Shown here: positions 1,896-19,333 of the stretch, piece by piece
Position numbering within the stretch: position 1 is the stretch's first letter
How the letters are laid out: each line of letters opens with the position of its first letter
DNA from: Flavobacteriales bacterium
GTDB taxonomy: Bacteria > Bacteroidota > Bacteroidia > Flavobacteriales_D > Sanyastnellaceae
Direction: 5' to 3'
DNA length: 64,000 nt
Assembly (NCBI GenBank): GCA_018402085.1
Contig: JAGYJM010000002.1
Location: 1,302,001-1,366,000 of the forward strand
Translations under genes and position numbers: made by a program
Notes under the pieces: model-generated
The model's database searches: none
Told to the model about the DNA's origin: nothing
What the model saw: the letters and a program-made list of their open reading frames with translations, nothing else

Positions 1896-2618
1896 ATGCG
1901 TTTGATCATTTTACTCATCGGCTATCCACTGTTTTTAGTGTGGACCATCATCTCGGGCTTCACCGGGATGTTCATCGCTGCGGTGCTGCGGTCTCCACAA
2001 CTTACCCTCTCGTTCGTTCCCGGAAAAATGTGGGCACCCGTGACCTTATTTTTACTGGGCATCCGCACACGCATTACAGGGCAAGAGCATGCCGATCCGG
2101 AGGTTCCTTCCATCTATGTGGTAAACCACAGCAGTTTTCTCGACATTCCTGTGTGTGTCATGGGCATTCCGGTAAAGCTCAATTTCATCGCGAAGAAAGA
2201 ACTCAAAAACGCCCCGATCATTGGCTGGTACGTGTCTGCCACGCGACAGATCTTTATAGACCGCCAGAACCGTGAGAAAGCCATGCAAAGCATGCGCAAG
2301 GCGGCAGAGCGCATCGATGAAGGCAAAAGCGTGTTGAGCTATGCTGAAGGCACACGTTCGAAAGATGGCGAAATCAAGATGTTCCGCCGTGGGGCATTCA
2401 CCATCGCGAACGAAAAGAACATCCGCATCGTACCGGTGGCCGTAACCGGAGCCTTCGAGTGCCTGCCGCCGGGAGCCTTCCTGGTGCGTCCGGGCACCAT
2501 CCACCTCACCATCGGCGAAGGCTTTCGTCCGTCTGATTACCCCGATGCCAGCACCGAAGAGCTCGCCGAAATCGCACGCCAGAAAGTCATCAGCCTCAGA
2601 CAGGAGGTTTTGAAATGA
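1896..2618 (+). CDS. plsC: 1-acyl-sn-glycerol-3-phosphate acyltransferase (PlsC family)
   Basis: This 240-residue inner-membrane enzyme adds the second acyl chain to lysophosphatidic acid in phospholipid synthesis. The catalytic HX4D motif is NHSSFLD (His78, Asp83). The substrate motif FIDRQ is near residue 120 and EGTR is at 151-154. Hydrophobic segments at residues 1-30 and 45-57 anchor it. The start is supported by a TAGCTTTG box just upstream. The stop overlaps the start of the next gene (ATGA), so the barrel protein is probably translated from the same message. The acyltransferase family is broad, and a lyso-ornithine lipid acyltransferase would look similar. Confidence 0.85.
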   Translation: MRLIILLIGYPLFLVWTIISGFTGMFIAAVLRSPQLTLSFVPGKMWAPVTLFLLGIRTRITGQEHADPEVPSIYVVNHSSFLDIPVCVMGIPVKLNFIAKKELKNAPIIGWYVSATRQIFIDRQNREKAMQSMRKAAERIDEGKSVLSYAEGTRSKDGEIKMFRRGAFTIANEKNIRIVPVAVTGAFECLPPGAFLVRPGTIHLTIGEGFRPSDYPDASTEELAEIARQKVISLRQEVLK

Positions 2619-3700
2619 TACGAGTTATACTGCTGCTTCAGGCAGTGCTGCTTTTTTCTTTCTGCGCGAGATCTGTCCCGATTTATCTGGAAGCGCAGGA
2701 TGCAGATACGACCCGTAAAAACACCTTTTTTCCTGTACCCGTCGGATTCTACACCCCCGAAACACGCTTCGGGATAGGCGCTGCAGCGGTCTACAACTTC
2801 TACATCAATAAAGCAGACACCATCAGTCCGCCGTCGCAGCTTCAGGGCGGATTCGCCTTCACACAAGAGCGACAATTCCTCGCTTACCTGCCTTTTCAGC
2901 TCTTCTGGGATGAGCGCAAATGGTTCAGCTTCGGGGAAGTTGGATATTACCGCTACAACTACTTTTTCTACGGCGTGGGCAACAGTCCGGAGAATAGGGA
3001 AGAGCGGTATGGAGTCAACTTTCCGCGCATCCGCCTCAACCTGTTCAGGCAGGTCTGCAAGCGCTGGTATGTAGGTGCGCGCCTGTGGATAGAGGAGTGG
3101 CGGTTTACGGAGTTTGAAGAAGGGGCGGCACTGGCATCGGGCACGGTAGCGGGCAATGAAGGCGGAAGAACCTATGATCCCGGGGTGATGATCTTGCATG
3201 ACGGACGCGACAACGTGCTGTACCCGACCAAAGGCTGGTTCCTGGAGGCGGTGACGCAGCATGCCACCGGTGCTTTCGGATGGTCGCGCTACCGGGCAGA
3301 CCTTCGTCACTACCTGCCGCTGCACGATCAGCTCACGTGGGCCAACCAGGCCTTTGTCGACATCACCACCGGCTCCACACCGTTTTACATGATGGCCATG
3401 TTGGGCGGCACCAAGCGCATGCGCGGCTATTACGAAGGACGTTTCCGCGACAAGACAGGTGTACTCTACCAGACCGAGCTTCGGGCCCGCATCTGGCGCC
3501 GATGGGGAGCCACCGCCTTCTGGAGTGCGGGCGTCGTAGATGAAACAGCCGCGCAGTGGTCGCTCGCCCACTTCCGCAACGCCGGCGGACTCGGAATCCG
3601 CTTTGAACTGGACCCAGAAAAAGACCTCAACATCCGCTTCGACGTCGCCACCGGTCCCGGCTCCACGCAATTCTACCTCACTTTCGGCGAGGCGTTTTAA
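2615..3700 (+). CDS. BamA/TamA (Omp85) family outer-membrane barrel protein
   Basis: This 361-residue protein has an N-terminal signal-like hydrophobic stretch (residues 1-20) and then alternating aromatic beta-strand patterns of an outer-membrane barrel. GGTKRMRGYYEGRFRDK is the VRGF/Y-type motif of the surface antigen (D15) domain, and the protein ends in an aromatic residue (GEAF). POTRA domains are absent, so it is a barrel-only member like those found in many Bacteroidota, which may move lipids or small proteins. It overlaps plsC by four bases; co-expression with a phospholipid enzyme suggests an envelope role. Substrate unknown. Confidence 0.8.
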   Translation: MIRVILLLQAVLLFSFCARSVPIYLEAQDADTTRKNTFFPVPVGFYTPETRFGIGAAAVYNFYINKADTISPPSQLQGGFAFTQERQFLAYLPFQLFWDERKWFSFGEVGYYRYNYFFYGVGNSPENREERYGVNFPRIRLNLFRQVCKRWYVGARLWIEEWRFTEFEEGAALASGTVAGNEGGRTYDPGVMILHDGRDNVLYPTKGWFLEAVTQHATGAFGWSRYRADLRHYLPLHDQLTWANQAFVDITTGSTPFYMMAMLGGTKRMRGYYEGRFRDKTGVLYQTELRARIWRRWGATAFWSAGVVDETAAQWSLAHFRNAGGLGIRFELDPEKDLNIRFDVATGPGSTQFYLTFGEAF

Positions 3701-3713
3701 CCGTTGGTGGTTG

Positions 3714-4850
3714 CAGCGCAACCTTGCGCTGCTGTATCATCCACCCGCAAAATTGAGGAGACGGCTTATAGCCGTCCGTGAATTGTGGTTCAACGAAAGG
3801 ACGCGCGAAGCGCGTCCCTACATGGTGCAACATTCACACAGAGGCGCCGCAACAATGCGGCGCACCGTAAGCCCGTTCTCGGGCTTTTTCATTGATCCAA
3901 TGGCGTTTTGTAGGGACGCGCTTAGCGCGTCCTAAATGCAGGTCAGCGCAACCTTGCGCTGCTGTACCATTCACCCGCAAAATTGAGGGAACGGCTTACA
4001 GCCGTCCGTGAATTGTGGTTCAACGAAAGGACGCGCGAAGCGCGTCCCTACATGGTGCAACATTCACACAGAGGCGCCGCAAGAATGCGGCGCACAGTAA
4101 GCCCGTTCTCGGGCTTTTTCATTGATCCAATGGCGTTTTGTAGGGACGCGCTTAGCGCGTCCTAAATGCAGGTCAGCGCAACCTTGCGCTGCTGTATCAT
4201 CCACCCGCAAAATTGAAGGAACGGCTTACAGCCGTCCATGAATTGTGGTTCAACGAAAGGACGCGCGAAGCGCGTCCCTACATGGTGCAACATTCACACG
4301 GAGGCGCCGCAAGAATGCGGCGCACAGTAAGCCCGTTCTCGGGCTTTTTCATTGATCCAATGGCGTTTTGTAGGGACGCGCTTAGCGCGTCCTGAATGCA
4401 GGTCAGCGCATCCTTGCGCTGCTGTATCATCCCCCGCAAAATTGAGGAGACGGCTTATAGCCGTCCGAGAATTGTGGTTCAACGAAAAGGATGCGCGAGG
4501 CGCGTCCTTACATGGTGCAACATTCACACAGAGGCGCCGCAATAATGCGGCGCACAGTAAGCCCGTTCTCGGGCTTTTTCATTGATCCAATGGCGTTTTG
4601 TAGGGACGCGCTTAGCGCGTCCTAAATGCAGGTCAGCGCAACCTTGCGCTGCTGTATCATCCCCCGCAAAATTGAGGAGACGGCTTACAGCCGTCCGTGA
4701 ATCGTGGTTCAACGAAAGGACGCGCGAAGCGCGTCCCTACATGGTGCAACATTCACACAGAGGCGCCGCAACAATGCGGCGCACCGTAAGCCCGTTCTCG
4801 GGCTTTTTCATTGATCCAATGGCGTTTTGTAGGGACGCGCTTAGCGCGCC
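3714..4850. repeat. Five tandem 230-bp units of REP-like hairpins (BIME-like array)
   Basis: Units start at 3714, 3944, 4174, 4404 and 4634, and the register is kept at exactly 230 bp. Each unit contains six hairpins, here in unit 1: AGCGCAA/TTGCGCT (3715-3730); GACGGCT/AGCCGTC (3760-3776); GGACGCGC/GCGCGTCC followed by CTAC (3799-3821); GCGCCGC/GCGGCGC (3844-3863); AGCCCG/CGGGCT plus a T run (3870-3889), which reads as a terminator; and GTAG then GGACGCGC/GCGCGTCC (3910-3932). The third and sixth are inverted copies of one REP-type hairpin with a GTAG foot. Several differences between units fall in loops (TATA/TACA, AACAAT/AAGAAT). The array fills the space between the convergent barrel and DUF547 genes. 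The ~60-residue frames inside it look like by-products. Confidence 0.9.
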
Positions 4851-4864
4851 ATGAATACTGCCAT

Positions 4865-4948
4865 CCCCGATCCCCGATCCCCAATCCGCGCCCCGCGATC
4901 CCCGATCCCCGATCCCCGATCCCCGATCTAAGATCCCCGATCCCCGAT
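4865..4948. repeat. Heptanucleotide array, unit CCCCGAT, 12 units
   Basis: Twelve 7-bp units in unbroken register, mostly CCCCGAT with variants such as CCCCAAT, CCGCGAT and CTAAGAT. It ends exactly at the stop codon of the DUF547 gene on the other strand (4949-4951). Confidence 0.85.
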
Positions 4949-5710
4949 CTAATCCACCATCCGGTTCAACCCCCAATCGTACTCCTTGTAGGTAATCTCC
5001 GCGTCTTCGTTTAGCGGAGTGTTGCTGTACCGATTGATGTAGCCGATGATGTCGGTTTCTTGAGTGAAGTCTCCCGAAAACCACTTGAAAATGCGGCTGA
5101 GCTCCGCTGATTCGGGTGTGATCGAATTGAATTTCGGGTCGTTGATGAACGCCTTTGCGCATTGGTCCAGTTCCGCATCCAGCGCTTTTGCGCTGAAAGC
5201 AAATCGCTGAAGCTTCGGACAAGATATACTGGCGCAATTCACCGCGAAATGAATCCGCGGATCATCCCAGCGTTTGCGCAGGATATCGTGCTCGATGTTG
5301 TTCAGGTCGTAGTCAGCGCCCTCGATGATGATGAAACGGATATCCCACGGCGTATTGATCTTGTACAGGTTACCCGCGATGTCTTTAATGCTCTCAAGCG
5401 GGTAATTGCGAATGATCAGCTGCACCGTAAAAGCGTTGTAGGCATTGATCCAGTAAGCCTTCCGCTCATTGCTGGTCCACCCGCCATTCGGATGGTGCTC
5501 CGAAAGATCCTTCAGGTAAATATTGAGGTCAGTAGAGTCGGCAATGAACCCTTCATAATTGACGAGTCCTTCATCATTGACATGCTTCTTAAGCAGCGCA
5601 TCCCACTGCTGATGGCTCACCGGAGGCACCGTTGACTGCACATCGGGCAGGGCACAAGAGGAGAGGATGAGGATACTGACAATGAAGAAAAATGCGGGAA
5701 GCCTTGACAT
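4949..5710 (-). CDS. DUF547 domain lipoprotein
   Basis: The protein starts with a lipoprotein signal peptide ending in LILSSC. The DUF547 domain follows, with its hallmark YWINAYNAFTVQLII block, the PWDIRF segment, and NCASISCPKL, in which the cysteines are thought to belong to a papain/transglutaminase-like site. I chose ATG 5710 over the longer frame to 5767. Reasons: the signal peptide begins there, a -7 box lies four bases upstream, and the longer form would run into the divergent gene. A dispersed hairpin copy encodes FSAKALDA near the middle. The family's biochemical role is not established. Likely anchored in the periplasm or outer membrane. Confidence 0.82.
   Translation of the reverse strand: MSRLPAFFFIVSILILSSCALPDVQSTVPPVSHQQWDALLKKHVNDEGLVNYEGFIADSTDLNIYLKDLSEHHPNGGWTSNERKAYWINAYNAFTVQLIIRNYPLESIKDIAGNLYKINTPWDIRFIIIEGADYDLNNIEHDILRKRWDDPRIHFAVNCASISCPKLQRFAFSAKALDAELDQCAKAFINDPKFNSITPESAELSRIFKWFSGDFTQETDIIGYINRYSNTPLNEDAEITYKEYDWGLNRMVD
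5175..5196 (-). repeat. Dispersed AAAA-loop hairpin, copy in DUF547 gene
   Basis: On the minus strand: stem CAGCGC/GCGCTG, loop AAAA, then GATGC. It is forward relative to the gene and read as SAKALDA, the same frame as in the pseudouridine synthase gene. Confidence 0.7.
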
Positions 5711-5714
5711 AGTG

Positions 5715-5722
5715 CAAAGATG
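5715..5722 (-). promoter_or_regulatory. -7-like box of the DUF547 gene
   Basis: CATCTTTG on the minus strand, one mismatch from TAnnTTTG, four bases before the ATG at 5710. The position supports that start and predicts a near-leaderless transcript. Confidence 0.4.
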
Positions 5723-5769
5723 CTGATTCTCACAGTTCAATGATCGCAAAAAAATCACAGCTTGCATCC

Positions 5770-6933: not shown

Positions 6934-7413
6934 CTACCGTTTCGCGCCAAACTGCATCTGTCGCTCCATCACCTGAAGCGACTCCTCACAGGTCATTTCA
7001 AGCTGCTGCATCTCTTCTTCAAAAGAGAGGTTGCGGTGAAACGCTTCTTGTTTTCTGAGATAGGCCTCCACTTTCGGAAGCCGGTTGGGTGAAATGCTGT
7101 ACACCCGATAGCCCGGGCTCCAGCTGAAGCCGACGGTGCCAGTAGCCTTCGCATGGGTATTGAACCGCTTCGTAAATCCCGCCTTGAATTTGCGCACCCA
7201 CGATTGTGGTGGCTCTTCTGACGGAAACAGCATCAGAAGATGAATGTGATCGAAAAGGATCGCCGAGGCAATCAGCGCGACTTCCGTATGTTCGCAGGTT
7301 TCAGTAATTAACCGAGCTGCCTCGGCGCAAAGCAAATGCCCTGCCACAGCCGATTCTTTGGACGGGCGCAGTACAATGTGGAGATAGAGTCTGTTGTATT
7401 CGCGAACTGCCAT
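6934..7413 (-). CDS. REP-associated tyrosine transposase (IS200/Y1 family, RAYT-like)
   Basis: This 159-residue protein shows the Y1 single-strand transposase signature. The HUH motif is HIH at residues 56-58 in FDHIHLLM, and the catalytic helix is YLRKQEAFHR with Tyr118 and Gln122. The segment WSPGYRVYSISPNRL between them is also typical of the family. No IS ends or accessory gene (tnpB) flank it, as expected for a stationary RAYT. RAYTs are known to act on REP hairpins with a GTAG-type foot; such hairpins lie in tandem 2.1 kb away (3714-4850). The catalytic residues look intact, so it may be active. It converges on the DUF4870 gene with three bases between. Confidence 0.82.
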   Translation of the reverse strand: MAVREYNRLYLHIVLRPSKESAVAGHLLCAEAARLITETCEHTEVALIASAILFDHIHLLMLFPSEEPPQSWVRKFKAGFTKRFNTHAKATGTVGFSWSPGYRVYSISPNRLPKVEAYLRKQEAFHRNLSFEEEMQQLEMTCEESLQVMERQMQFGAKR

Positions 7414-12307: not shown

Positions 12308-12349
12308 GGCAATGATTGTATTCTCTCTTTTGTGAATCGCCAGACGGGG
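12308..12349 (+). pseudogene. Remnant of an aldehyde dehydrogenase C-terminus
   Basis: Translated in frame, this 42-bp piece reads [14 protein letters not shown], against [14 protein letters not shown] at the end of the intact gene (codons from 11623). Within the ILSFVNRQT block the only two base differences are synonymous (CTG/CTC and GTC/GTG). It runs straight into a GGTGGAT heptamer array, as the intact gene also does. The toxin-antitoxin genes lie between the two copies. Confidence 0.7.
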
Positions 12350-12425
12350 GTGGATGGTGGATGGTGGATGGTGGATGGTGGATGGTGGATGGTGGATGGT
12401 GGATGGTGGATGGTGGATGGTGTTG
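12349..12425. repeat. Heptanucleotide array, unit GGTGGAT, 10 perfect units plus one variant
   Basis: Ten perfect GGTGGAT units from 12349 to 12418, then GGTGTTG. It follows the aldehyde dehydrogenase remnant. The apparent small minus-strand frame with PSTIHH repeats is a by-product. Confidence 0.9.
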
Positions 12426-12449: not shown

Positions 12450-13725
12450 GGTTGTGTTCAGTTAAGTGTGTCATTTGAGTCTAAGCCTATCCCTGTGGGT
12501 TATCATAAGTGATGCAATAACCCTTGACCAGGATTGTGGTCGACTCCATTTCTTCTGCACCTTCTGGGTAACAAGGTACAGCAGTTTCAACAGAGCTCGT
12601 TCAGAGGTGAGCGCCCCTTTGGCCTTGGTGCCTTTGCGAACTTGACGATTGAAGCCCTCAATGGAGTTGGTGGTATACATTACTCGTTTCACATGTTCAT
12701 CGTATCCGAAGAAGGTGGTGAGATGCTCCCAGTTACGCTTCCATGATTGGATCATTGCAGGATATTTCTTGCCCCACTTCTCTTCGAAGTTCTCTAGTTC
12801 AGTCTCTGCTTGGTCGATGCTATTCGCCCTGTAAATCAGCCTCATGTCTCGGACCACAGCTCTTTTGTCTTGCCAGTTCACATAGCGTGTTGAGTTGCGG
12901 ATCTGATGAACTATGCAAAGCTGCACGTCTGTCCTAGGAAAGACTGTTGTTATGACCTCCTTGAAGCCTTTCAAGTTGTCGATACTGGCGATAATTATGT
13001 CTTCTACACCTCTTGCCTCAAGGTCATTCAGTACTCCCAACCAGAAGCCTGAACTTTCTGTTTCTGATAGATAGATGCCCAAAAGATCCTTCTCTCCTTC
13101 AACGTTCATTCCAAGTGCCATGTAAGCAGCCATTTGTTTAACCCGTCCGTCTTGCTTGACCTTGAAGAACATAGCGTCCATCCACAAGAACACATACACC
13201 GAGTCGAGCGGCCGGCTTCGCCACTCTTCGATTTCTGGCCATACTCTATCTGTGATGGCACTTAGTTGTGCCTTACTCAAGTTCATGTCATACATCTCAT
13301 CGATATGATCGGAGATGTCTTGATAGCTCATACCTGAACTGTAAAGCCCTATGATTTTCTTTTCAAGACTATCGCCTAACGCCCGTTGTCGTTTCGGTAT
13401 AAGACTCGGTTCGTAAGTGCCGTCGCGGTCGCGCGGAGTCTCGATTTCTATCTCTCCAGAACTCGTCTTCACACGCTTCTTACCCTTGCCATTACGACGG
13501 TTCGGACGAGCTGATTCAACGTGTGCATCCATCTCGCCCTCAAGACTCGCTTCTAGAACGTGCTTGATCATAGGCGTCAGTGCGCCATCCTTACCCGTTA
13601 AAGGCTTGCCTGACTGAAGTGCCGATAAGACCGCTTCCAGTAACTTGTCTGCTTCTGATTTCTCTTTCATTGTATCAAGGTATTTGTTATTTCATTTGCC
13701 TTGACACACTTTTCTGAACAGTCTC
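12450..13725 (-). mobile_element. Complete IS256-family insertion sequence with 8-bp target duplication
   Basis: The ends share TGTTCAGNNAAGTGTGTCA as inverted repeats (12455-12473 and 13702-13720), set five bases inside each tip. The direct repeat CCAGAGAC flanks both ends (12442-12449 and 13726-13733), matching the 8-9 bp duplication of this family. Joining the flanks restores an uninterrupted intergenic sequence, so the insertion is fairly recent and broke no gene. One transposase gene fills it. Confidence 0.88.
12471..13670 (-). CDS. IS256 family transposase (Mutator type)
   Basis: This 399-residue DDE transposase looks intact. The catalytic acids lie in [15 protein letters not shown], in ASIDNLKGF and in [20 protein letters not shown]. 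The linker with the [13 protein letters not shown] signature is diagnostic of the family. The N-terminal part contains the DNA-binding region ([14 protein letters not shown]). The stop codon lies within the left inverted repeat. Confidence 0.93.
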
Positions 13726-18745: not shown

Positions 18746-18780
18746 GACCGTCGGCCGTCAGCGGTCAGCTGTCAGCTGTC
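18746..18780. repeat. Heptanucleotide array, unit AGCTGTC-like, 5 units
   Basis: Units GACCGTC, GGCCGTC, AGCGGTC, AGCTGTC, AGCTGTC, in register, starting immediately after the TGA stop at 18743-18745. Confidence 0.7.
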
Positions 18781-19287: not shown

Positions 19288-19308
19288 GCAGACGGCAGAC
19301 GGCAGACG
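19288..19308. repeat. Heptanucleotide array, unit GCAGACG, 3 units
   Basis: Three perfect units of GCAGACG, 35 bp after the stop of the four-helix-bundle gene and 26 bp beyond the stop of argS on the other strand. Confidence 0.6.
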
Positions 19309-19333
19309 GTTTGTCAAGGACCAAAACAGGTTG

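Follow-up and report, generated by a model that had tools for sequence, protein, structure and literature searches.

The window analysed here, a stretch of 64,000 nucleotides from the genome of a Flavobacteriales bacterium, contains a tandem array whose 230-bp unit appears from its sequence to be a composite of two REP families, consisting of a gene-less family-1 element and one end of a family-2 element. We consider it likely, with a probability of roughly four in five, that these pieces were moved by RAYT proteins, that the composite then multiplied by ordinary tandem growth and that no dedicated host role lies behind the array. A preliminary description had recognised the layout of tandem BIMEs, with additional hairpins filling each unit. 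The BIME-like arrangement of GTAG-footed inverted REPs held up, but the additional hairpins are not random filler; two of the four correspond to subterminal hairpins of family-1 RAYT elements, one to a family-2 REP and one to a family-2 subterminal hairpin.

Layout and anatomy of the array

Using TRF, the array was located at 3714-4848 (period 230, 4.9 copies, 95% matches). In a BLASTN search with unit 2 as query, units started at 3714, 3944, 4174, 4404 and 4634, spaced exactly 230 bp apart as had been described, with the last one incomplete; a gap-free repeat search gave spacings of 230, 230, 230 and 229. The first four units (230 bp each) span 3714-3943, 3944-4173, 4174-4403 and 4404-4633, and the fifth covers 4634-4856, with TRF placing the end of the array at 4848. 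Pairwise identity among the units is 94-98% (alignment columns 1-218). The array is intergenic and lies between two convergent genes, both directed into it, whose stop codons are separated by 1248 bp: a gene for an Omp85-domain outer membrane protein on the left (2615-3700, plus strand) and a DUF547 gene on the right (4949-5767, minus strand). The remainder of the gap is occupied by an imperfect ATCCCCG tandem of period 7 (4863-4949, 12.4 copies by TRF). As the unit length is not divisible by 3, the open frames that run across the array encode no repeated protein, and a protein-coding repeat was rejected on this ground. A CRISPR was likewise rejected, since the array has no spacers of differing sequence. 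When the whole window was searched against the Rfam families, no match reached the gathering score.

Each unit harbors six hairpins, all of which were confirmed, in agreement with the REP/inverted-REP pair and four further hairpins reported before: CAGCGCA-ACCT-TGCGCTG; ACGGCT-TAC-AGCCGT; GGACGCGC-GAA-GCGCGTCC followed by CTAC; GCGCCGCA-AGAA-TGCGGCGC; AAGCCCG-TTCT-CGGGCTT followed by TTT; and GTAG followed by GGACGCGC-TTA-GCGCGTCC. The 25-nt inverted arms of the array enclose 86 nt, and along the array the REPs are regularly spaced in alternating orientation, with 86 and 94 nt between inverted arms. The family-1 REPs fit the definition of a GTAG REP, a palindrome of 20-40 bp with GTAG at one end. 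This foot, which had been ascribed to every unit, is intact in nine of ten; one REP of unit 4 has a GTAA foot together with a G-T pair, and the last REP of the array is truncated.

Folding of a single unit was far more stable than expected from shuffled sequences, both as RNA of the plus strand (z -8.8) and as DNA of the minus strand (z -10.4), and none of 200 shuffles was as stable in either case. Differences between units were scored over alignment columns 1-218 and were found in 1 of 85 stem columns, 4 of 21 loop columns and 12 of 110 spacer columns, in addition to 2 insertion columns. Changes between units thus avoid stems (Fisher p 0.003 for stem versus loop plus spacer). It had been noticed that several differences fall into loops, but most of them are located in spacers.

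The family-1 part of the unit is read on the minus strand and comprises an inverted REP with an inward CTAC foot, two subterminal hairpins, and an inward GTAG foot with its REP. It measures 134 bp and occupies 3799-3932 in unit 1, 4029-4162 in unit 2 (the reference for the comparison with RAYT ends below), 4259-4392 in unit 3, 4489-4622 in unit 4 and, shortened by the truncated REP, 4718-4848 in unit 5. The family-2 part lies on the plus strand at 3714-3777, 3944-4007, 4174-4237, 4404-4466 and 4634-4696. It is a piece of about 64 bp in which the hairpin CAGCGCA..TGCGCTG is followed by TTGAGG, containing the foot GAGG, and by the ACGGCT REP, (A)GACGGCT..AGCCGTC(C), and it represents a single right end.

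RAYT-like genes and the probable origin of the two pieces

The genome that holds the window (3.775 Mb in two contigs, C1 and C2) encodes six RAYT-like proteins, which were found with a protein of genome G002 from the same genus and confirmed by a 12-row profile. All six carry the motifs DHxH, WQ and Y[IV]xxNP, with a HuH motif and a single catalytic tyrosine followed by NP. Among solved structures the profile matched E. coli TnpArep (4er8) best, with an E value of 3e-5 in the HuH region. The six proteins score 35-64 bits against NCBIfam NF047646 (REP_Tyr_transpos, cut-off 80) and 13-22 against Pfam Y1_Tnp (cut-off 23 bits), and are therefore named RAYT-like and placed outside the NF047646 equivalog. 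The Pfam Y1_Tnp search found only a gene in the window (6934-7413), and a reading in which this is the sole Y1 transposase of the genome was wrong, as that search misses the six RAYT-like genes. Inverted REPs belonging to the gene's own stem class stand on both sides of five of the six genes, and in most cases a further hairpin separates REP and gene. For the sixth, at C2:1643157, no inverted REP pair was found in the locus; downstream of this gene lies a long GTAG-containing palindrome of the double-foot type, GTAGGTGTGGACTGCAGTCCACACCTAC.

Seven RAYT loci were used to compare their ends with the 134-bp element, and the shuffles behind the z scores of this comparison preserve base content only. 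The RAYT at C1:84938 gave the best match at either end (left z 9.5, next best 8.2; right z 15.3, next best 10.1), so that the element resembles this locus without its gene. With the REP omitted, the left-end match to C1:84938 was weak (z 3.5, against 3.3 for a RAYT of G001, a genome of the same genus), and the right end gave z 8.3, with two other RAYTs at 7.1 and 7.0. For the family-2 piece the right ends at C2:2518908 (z 12.7) and C2:3455589 (z 11.1) stood apart from the other five (0.8-4.7). By these similarities, the RAYT at C1:84938 would be the nearest gene-bearing relative of the family-1 element, and those at C2:2518908 and C2:3455589 the gene-bearing relatives of the family-2 end.

Elements of four hairpins in the same order were also found in two further arrays, L111 (134 bp) and L011 (136 bp). 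In an alignment of the three elements all 31 of 31 base pairs are kept in each of them, with two-sided changes at 4 pairs distributed over three of the four hairpins; 9 of 500 shuffles showed as many. The sister element in L111 (C2:2836207) has its first 26 bases in common with the left end at the C1:84938 RAYT. The similarity to C1:84938 and the recurrence in three arrays show the features of a REPIN or MITE, namely the two ends of an autonomous element that lack the gene between them, and the family-1 piece would thus be a MITE- or REPIN-like gene-less derivative of a RAYT element. As both subterminal hairpins accompany the REPs in the gene-less element, the mobile unit of this lineage is suggested to possess two hairpins per end. 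However, all three gene-less copies that were found are located inside tandem arrays and none is a clean single insertion; for this reason the gene-less element may instead be a fragment left by recombination.

When 114 genomes of the family were surveyed, RAYTs and REPs were also found to be associated: a RAYT was detected in 8 of 9 genomes with at least two REPs and in 15 of 105 others (Fisher p 7e-6). The nine REP-carrying genomes come from no more than three genera, two of which account for most of the association. G016 was found to carry six REPs and no RAYT in this survey. The backwards control pattern itself matched 36 times in G007 and 25 times in G069, both of genus g6, so that a different palindrome family may exist there, consisting of a CCTGC hairpin with a CATC tag.

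Feet of the REPs and comparison with known systems

The feet of REPs were counted by hand with exact patterns allowing [AG][AGT][AG]G, and 100 of 105 places were listed. Among the places listed, GGACGGCT stems with the loop TAT had the foot GAGG or GGGG in 22 of 22 cases and those with the loop CCC had AGAG in 17 of 17, while GGACGCCT stems had ATAG in 41 (one with unlike arms), AGAG in 13, GTAG in 6 and GGAG in 1. The RAYT genes next to such REPs show matching feet at their two ends, namely GTAG at C2:2965263 and C1:84938, ATAG at C2:2496541, AGAG at C2:2518908 and GGGG/GAGG at C2:3455589. The REPs are not CGTC-tagged, their feet being GTAG, GAGG, AGAG and ATAG. In the available part of Di Nocera et al. 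(PMC3733652) the foot variants listed are GYAG, GYRG, GTRG, GTMG and GTGG, and a foot GT[AG]G is given in the corresponding part of PMC6006769. A first base other than G, as in AGAG and ATAG here, is absent from the former list.

In an alignment of 16 hand-picked REPs (15 distinct) pairing was complete, which is partly due to selection because most of them had been found with palindromic patterns; two-sided changes occurred in 4 of 8 pairs. Covariation was 0.460 compared with 0.156 in shuffles and was reached by none of 500, whereas 28 of 500 shuffles attained the count of two-sided pairs and 485 of 500 the number of pair types.

The residue following WQxxY[HF/D][DE], corresponding to position 101 in E. 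coli numbering by our own alignment, is Arg in 4 of 4 RAYTs of the genus with GTAG feet and Gln in 4 of 4 with other feet. Both RAYTs with AGAG feet, from two species, carry Asp in place of His at the second position preceding it. Residues of the guide recognition region are given as E100 and H101 in the available part of PMC6006769 and as D100, Q95 and R104 in that of PMC8266576. Twenty GTAG loci of other organisms, labelled by eye and often from one end, contained no Gln but His in 15, Arg in 4 and Leu in 1, and at least three more such loci exist (L143 Arg, L154 Arg, L203 His). Gln in 4 of 4 non-GTAG RAYTs versus 0 of 24 with GTAG corresponds to p 4.9e-5 if kinship is ignored. On the tree the non-GTAG feet require two changes, and the sample of independent foot switches is therefore tiny. 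A simple residue code is contradicted by the RAYTs L213 and L219 of genus g9, with Ser and feet GTAA or ATAA, by L217, with Arg and a non-GTAG foot, and by L190, with Gln and no REP seen. The wider data agree in part, and we regard the relation of the Arg/Gln residue to the foot, seen at sequence level, as a lead only. It is possible, though we hold it rather doubtful, that RAYT paralogues of this genus switched their guide tetranucleotide, with each foot served by its own RAYT and the Arg/Gln residue helping in the choice, in which case the array would fuse ends of two orthogonal systems. For the E. coli RAYT, the guide tetranucleotide is described in the available part of PMC8266576 as tolerating no substitution. 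Six RAYT-like genes and at least four feet in one genome thus offer natural variation for studying how the guide tetranucleotide is read.

The array is of a known kind, a BIME or REPIN with RAYT, in richer form. Among the closest known systems are enterobacterial BIMEs and the TT type of GTAG-tagged REP dimers; the array differs from both in that the spacer holds two hairpins matching subterminal hairpins of RAYT elements and that the unit additionally carries a second-family REP end. The two-hairpin spacer has a precedent, since CGTC-3 dimers of A. tumefaciens have spacers with two stem-loops according to the available text of PMC3733652. As in REPtrons and REPINs, the RAYT gene is situated between inverted REPs of its own family and gene-less pairs occur elsewhere. 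Repeat-specific REPtrons are described in the same source for species with several GTAG families, whereas the single genome studied here combines six RAYT-like genes and a minimum of four feet (GTAG, GAGG, AGAG, ATAG). In P. putida and P. fluorescens, double inverted repeats consisting of a REP unit and an unrelated stem-loop are located at each end of a tyrosine transposase gene and exist in hundreds of copies, as stated in that text. The joining of a REP to a further stem-loop at gene ends is shared with the present elements, but the Pseudomonas REP unit is degenerate and the one found here is perfect and GTAG-footed. With IS200/IS605 the system has in common a HuH-tyrosine transposase, hairpin ends and a tetranucleotide 5' of the hairpin, which acts as guide (PMC8266576, available part); it differs in that NP, not Q, follows the tyrosine and that dispersed REPs are found in place of whole elements. 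A less usual trait is that non-GTAG feet (AGAG, ATAG, GAGG) occur as well, every one of them at a separate RAYT.

Copies across the genome and probable growth of the array

Two absences that would speak against BIMEs had been named in advance, that of further GTAG-footed hairpins and that of arrays in close relatives, and neither was found. A genome-wide search detected 110 exact GTAGGGACG..CGTCC hairpins (53 + 57, including those of the array) compared with 1 match of the backwards pattern, and G001 and G002, with 13 REPs each, carry hairpin-bearing arrays of 84 bp x 2.2 and 177 bp x 2.9, respectively. With up to 3 mismatches, GGACGCGCnnnGCGCGTCC (GGACGCGC palindromes) matched 83 times versus 22 for the control. 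A pattern for related stems gave 105 further places, of which 6 of the 100 listed are common to the set of 110. The REP is thus dispersed over the genome in high copy number. One unit used as BLASTN query yielded 76 matches, and those outside the array are partial, covering for example 1-65, 86-149, 86-222 or 179-222 of the unit, which fits a mosaic. Relative to mechanical open reading frames, which run through repeats, 13 of 25 REP clusters overlap frames, 5 lie between divergent, 4 between convergent and 3 between codirectional ones.

The preliminary description had judged tandem BIMEs of this complexity unusual, a view that does not hold for this genome. At least 17 hairpin-bearing tandem arrays, the present one included, were identified by TRF in the loci read of this genome, and complex tandem BIMEs are routine in it. 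The 16 others have periods of 45-247 bp, and 12 of them contain three or more copies. With 230 bp the present unit ranks among the longest, and in none of the other 16 was a combination of two REP families seen.

The setting of the array was compared in relatives. In G003, a member of another genus of the same family, the stop codons of the Omp85 and DUF547 genes abut with 0 bp between them, so that the gap was either filled in the present lineage or emptied in G003. The comparison rests on this one genome, since the neighbour genes are in different order in G001 and G002.

We infer that REP elements reached the Omp85-DUF547 gap with the help of RAYTs, whose action in trans on single-stranded hairpins would have moved the ends in the manner suggested for REPINs and for elements of the IS200/IS605 type. 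The composite would then have grown in tandem by slippage or unequal recombination and not by the transposase. Such ordinary growth is favoured because short tandem arrays unrelated to REPs are also common in this genome. Alternatively, the RAYT itself may build arrays by repeated cutting and joining at REPs, for which the 16 other hairpin-bearing arrays and the right end of the C1:84938 RAYT, repeated as 45 bp x 9.5, could be taken as evidence. This appears unlikely, as arrays without REPs are also common in the genome (44 bp x 12.2, 21 bp x 12.1 and many of period 7 and 8), and as many loci were chosen because patterns suggested arrays, their counts are no measure of enrichment.

Under RAYT movement followed by ordinary growth, no dedicated host role would be needed beyond effects of the hairpins on transcripts between the convergent genes. 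The array might, however, be maintained for its effect on transcription, acting as a terminator in both directions and stabilising 3' ends, with selection for the tandem copies. The region 3600-5000 contains 11 terminator-like sites versus 2.2 ± 1.5 in shuffles, five per strand within the array and one outside; the neighbouring genes are convergent, and the avoidance of stems by changes between units points in the same direction. Yet the same hairpins belong to RAYT elements elsewhere, some adjoining RAYT genes, and the relative G003 manages with no gap at all. The hairpin with the T run, likened to a terminator before, is terminator-like in the array, but its copy in L111 has a weaker T run. 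Selection as a transcription device therefore seems improbable to us; the hairpins may end transcripts from both sides, which need not explain why the array is present.

That the Y1 transposase gene of the window serves the array is highly improbable, for despite its proximity (2.1 kb) and a Pfam Y1_Tnp score of 55.6 bits its motif is of the Q and not the NP type, no GTAG hairpin was found in its 3.3-kb locus when perfect arms of 7-9 bp were required, and six other RAYT-like genes exist, five of them carrying REPs. This gene (6934-7413, minus strand) encodes a Q-type protein (DHIH, YLRKQEAFHRN) near subclass 1.2 (Y---Q--HH), which is generally without terminal structures according to the available part of Quentin et al. 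2018 (PMC6006769).

Intergenic DNA in the window, at 4863-4949, 12349-12422, 18757-18780 and 19288-19309, and at many other loci of the genome is filled by short tandem repeats, among which periods of 7 and 8 are strongly preferred. In 175 kb comprising the window and REP loci (with some overlap) 50 rows of period 8 and 23 of period 7 were counted, compared with 2 and 8 in 264 kb of RAYT loci from other organisms. The tract at 12349-12422 is a perfect GGTGGAT x 10.6 and adjoins a Mutator-family (IS256-like) transposase gene (12471-13670, minus strand). Both contigs carry clusters of REPs and octamers at their ends (C1:293-296.6 kb and C2:3471-3478 kb; L035-L037 and L039), and for this reason the assembly may break at such repeats.
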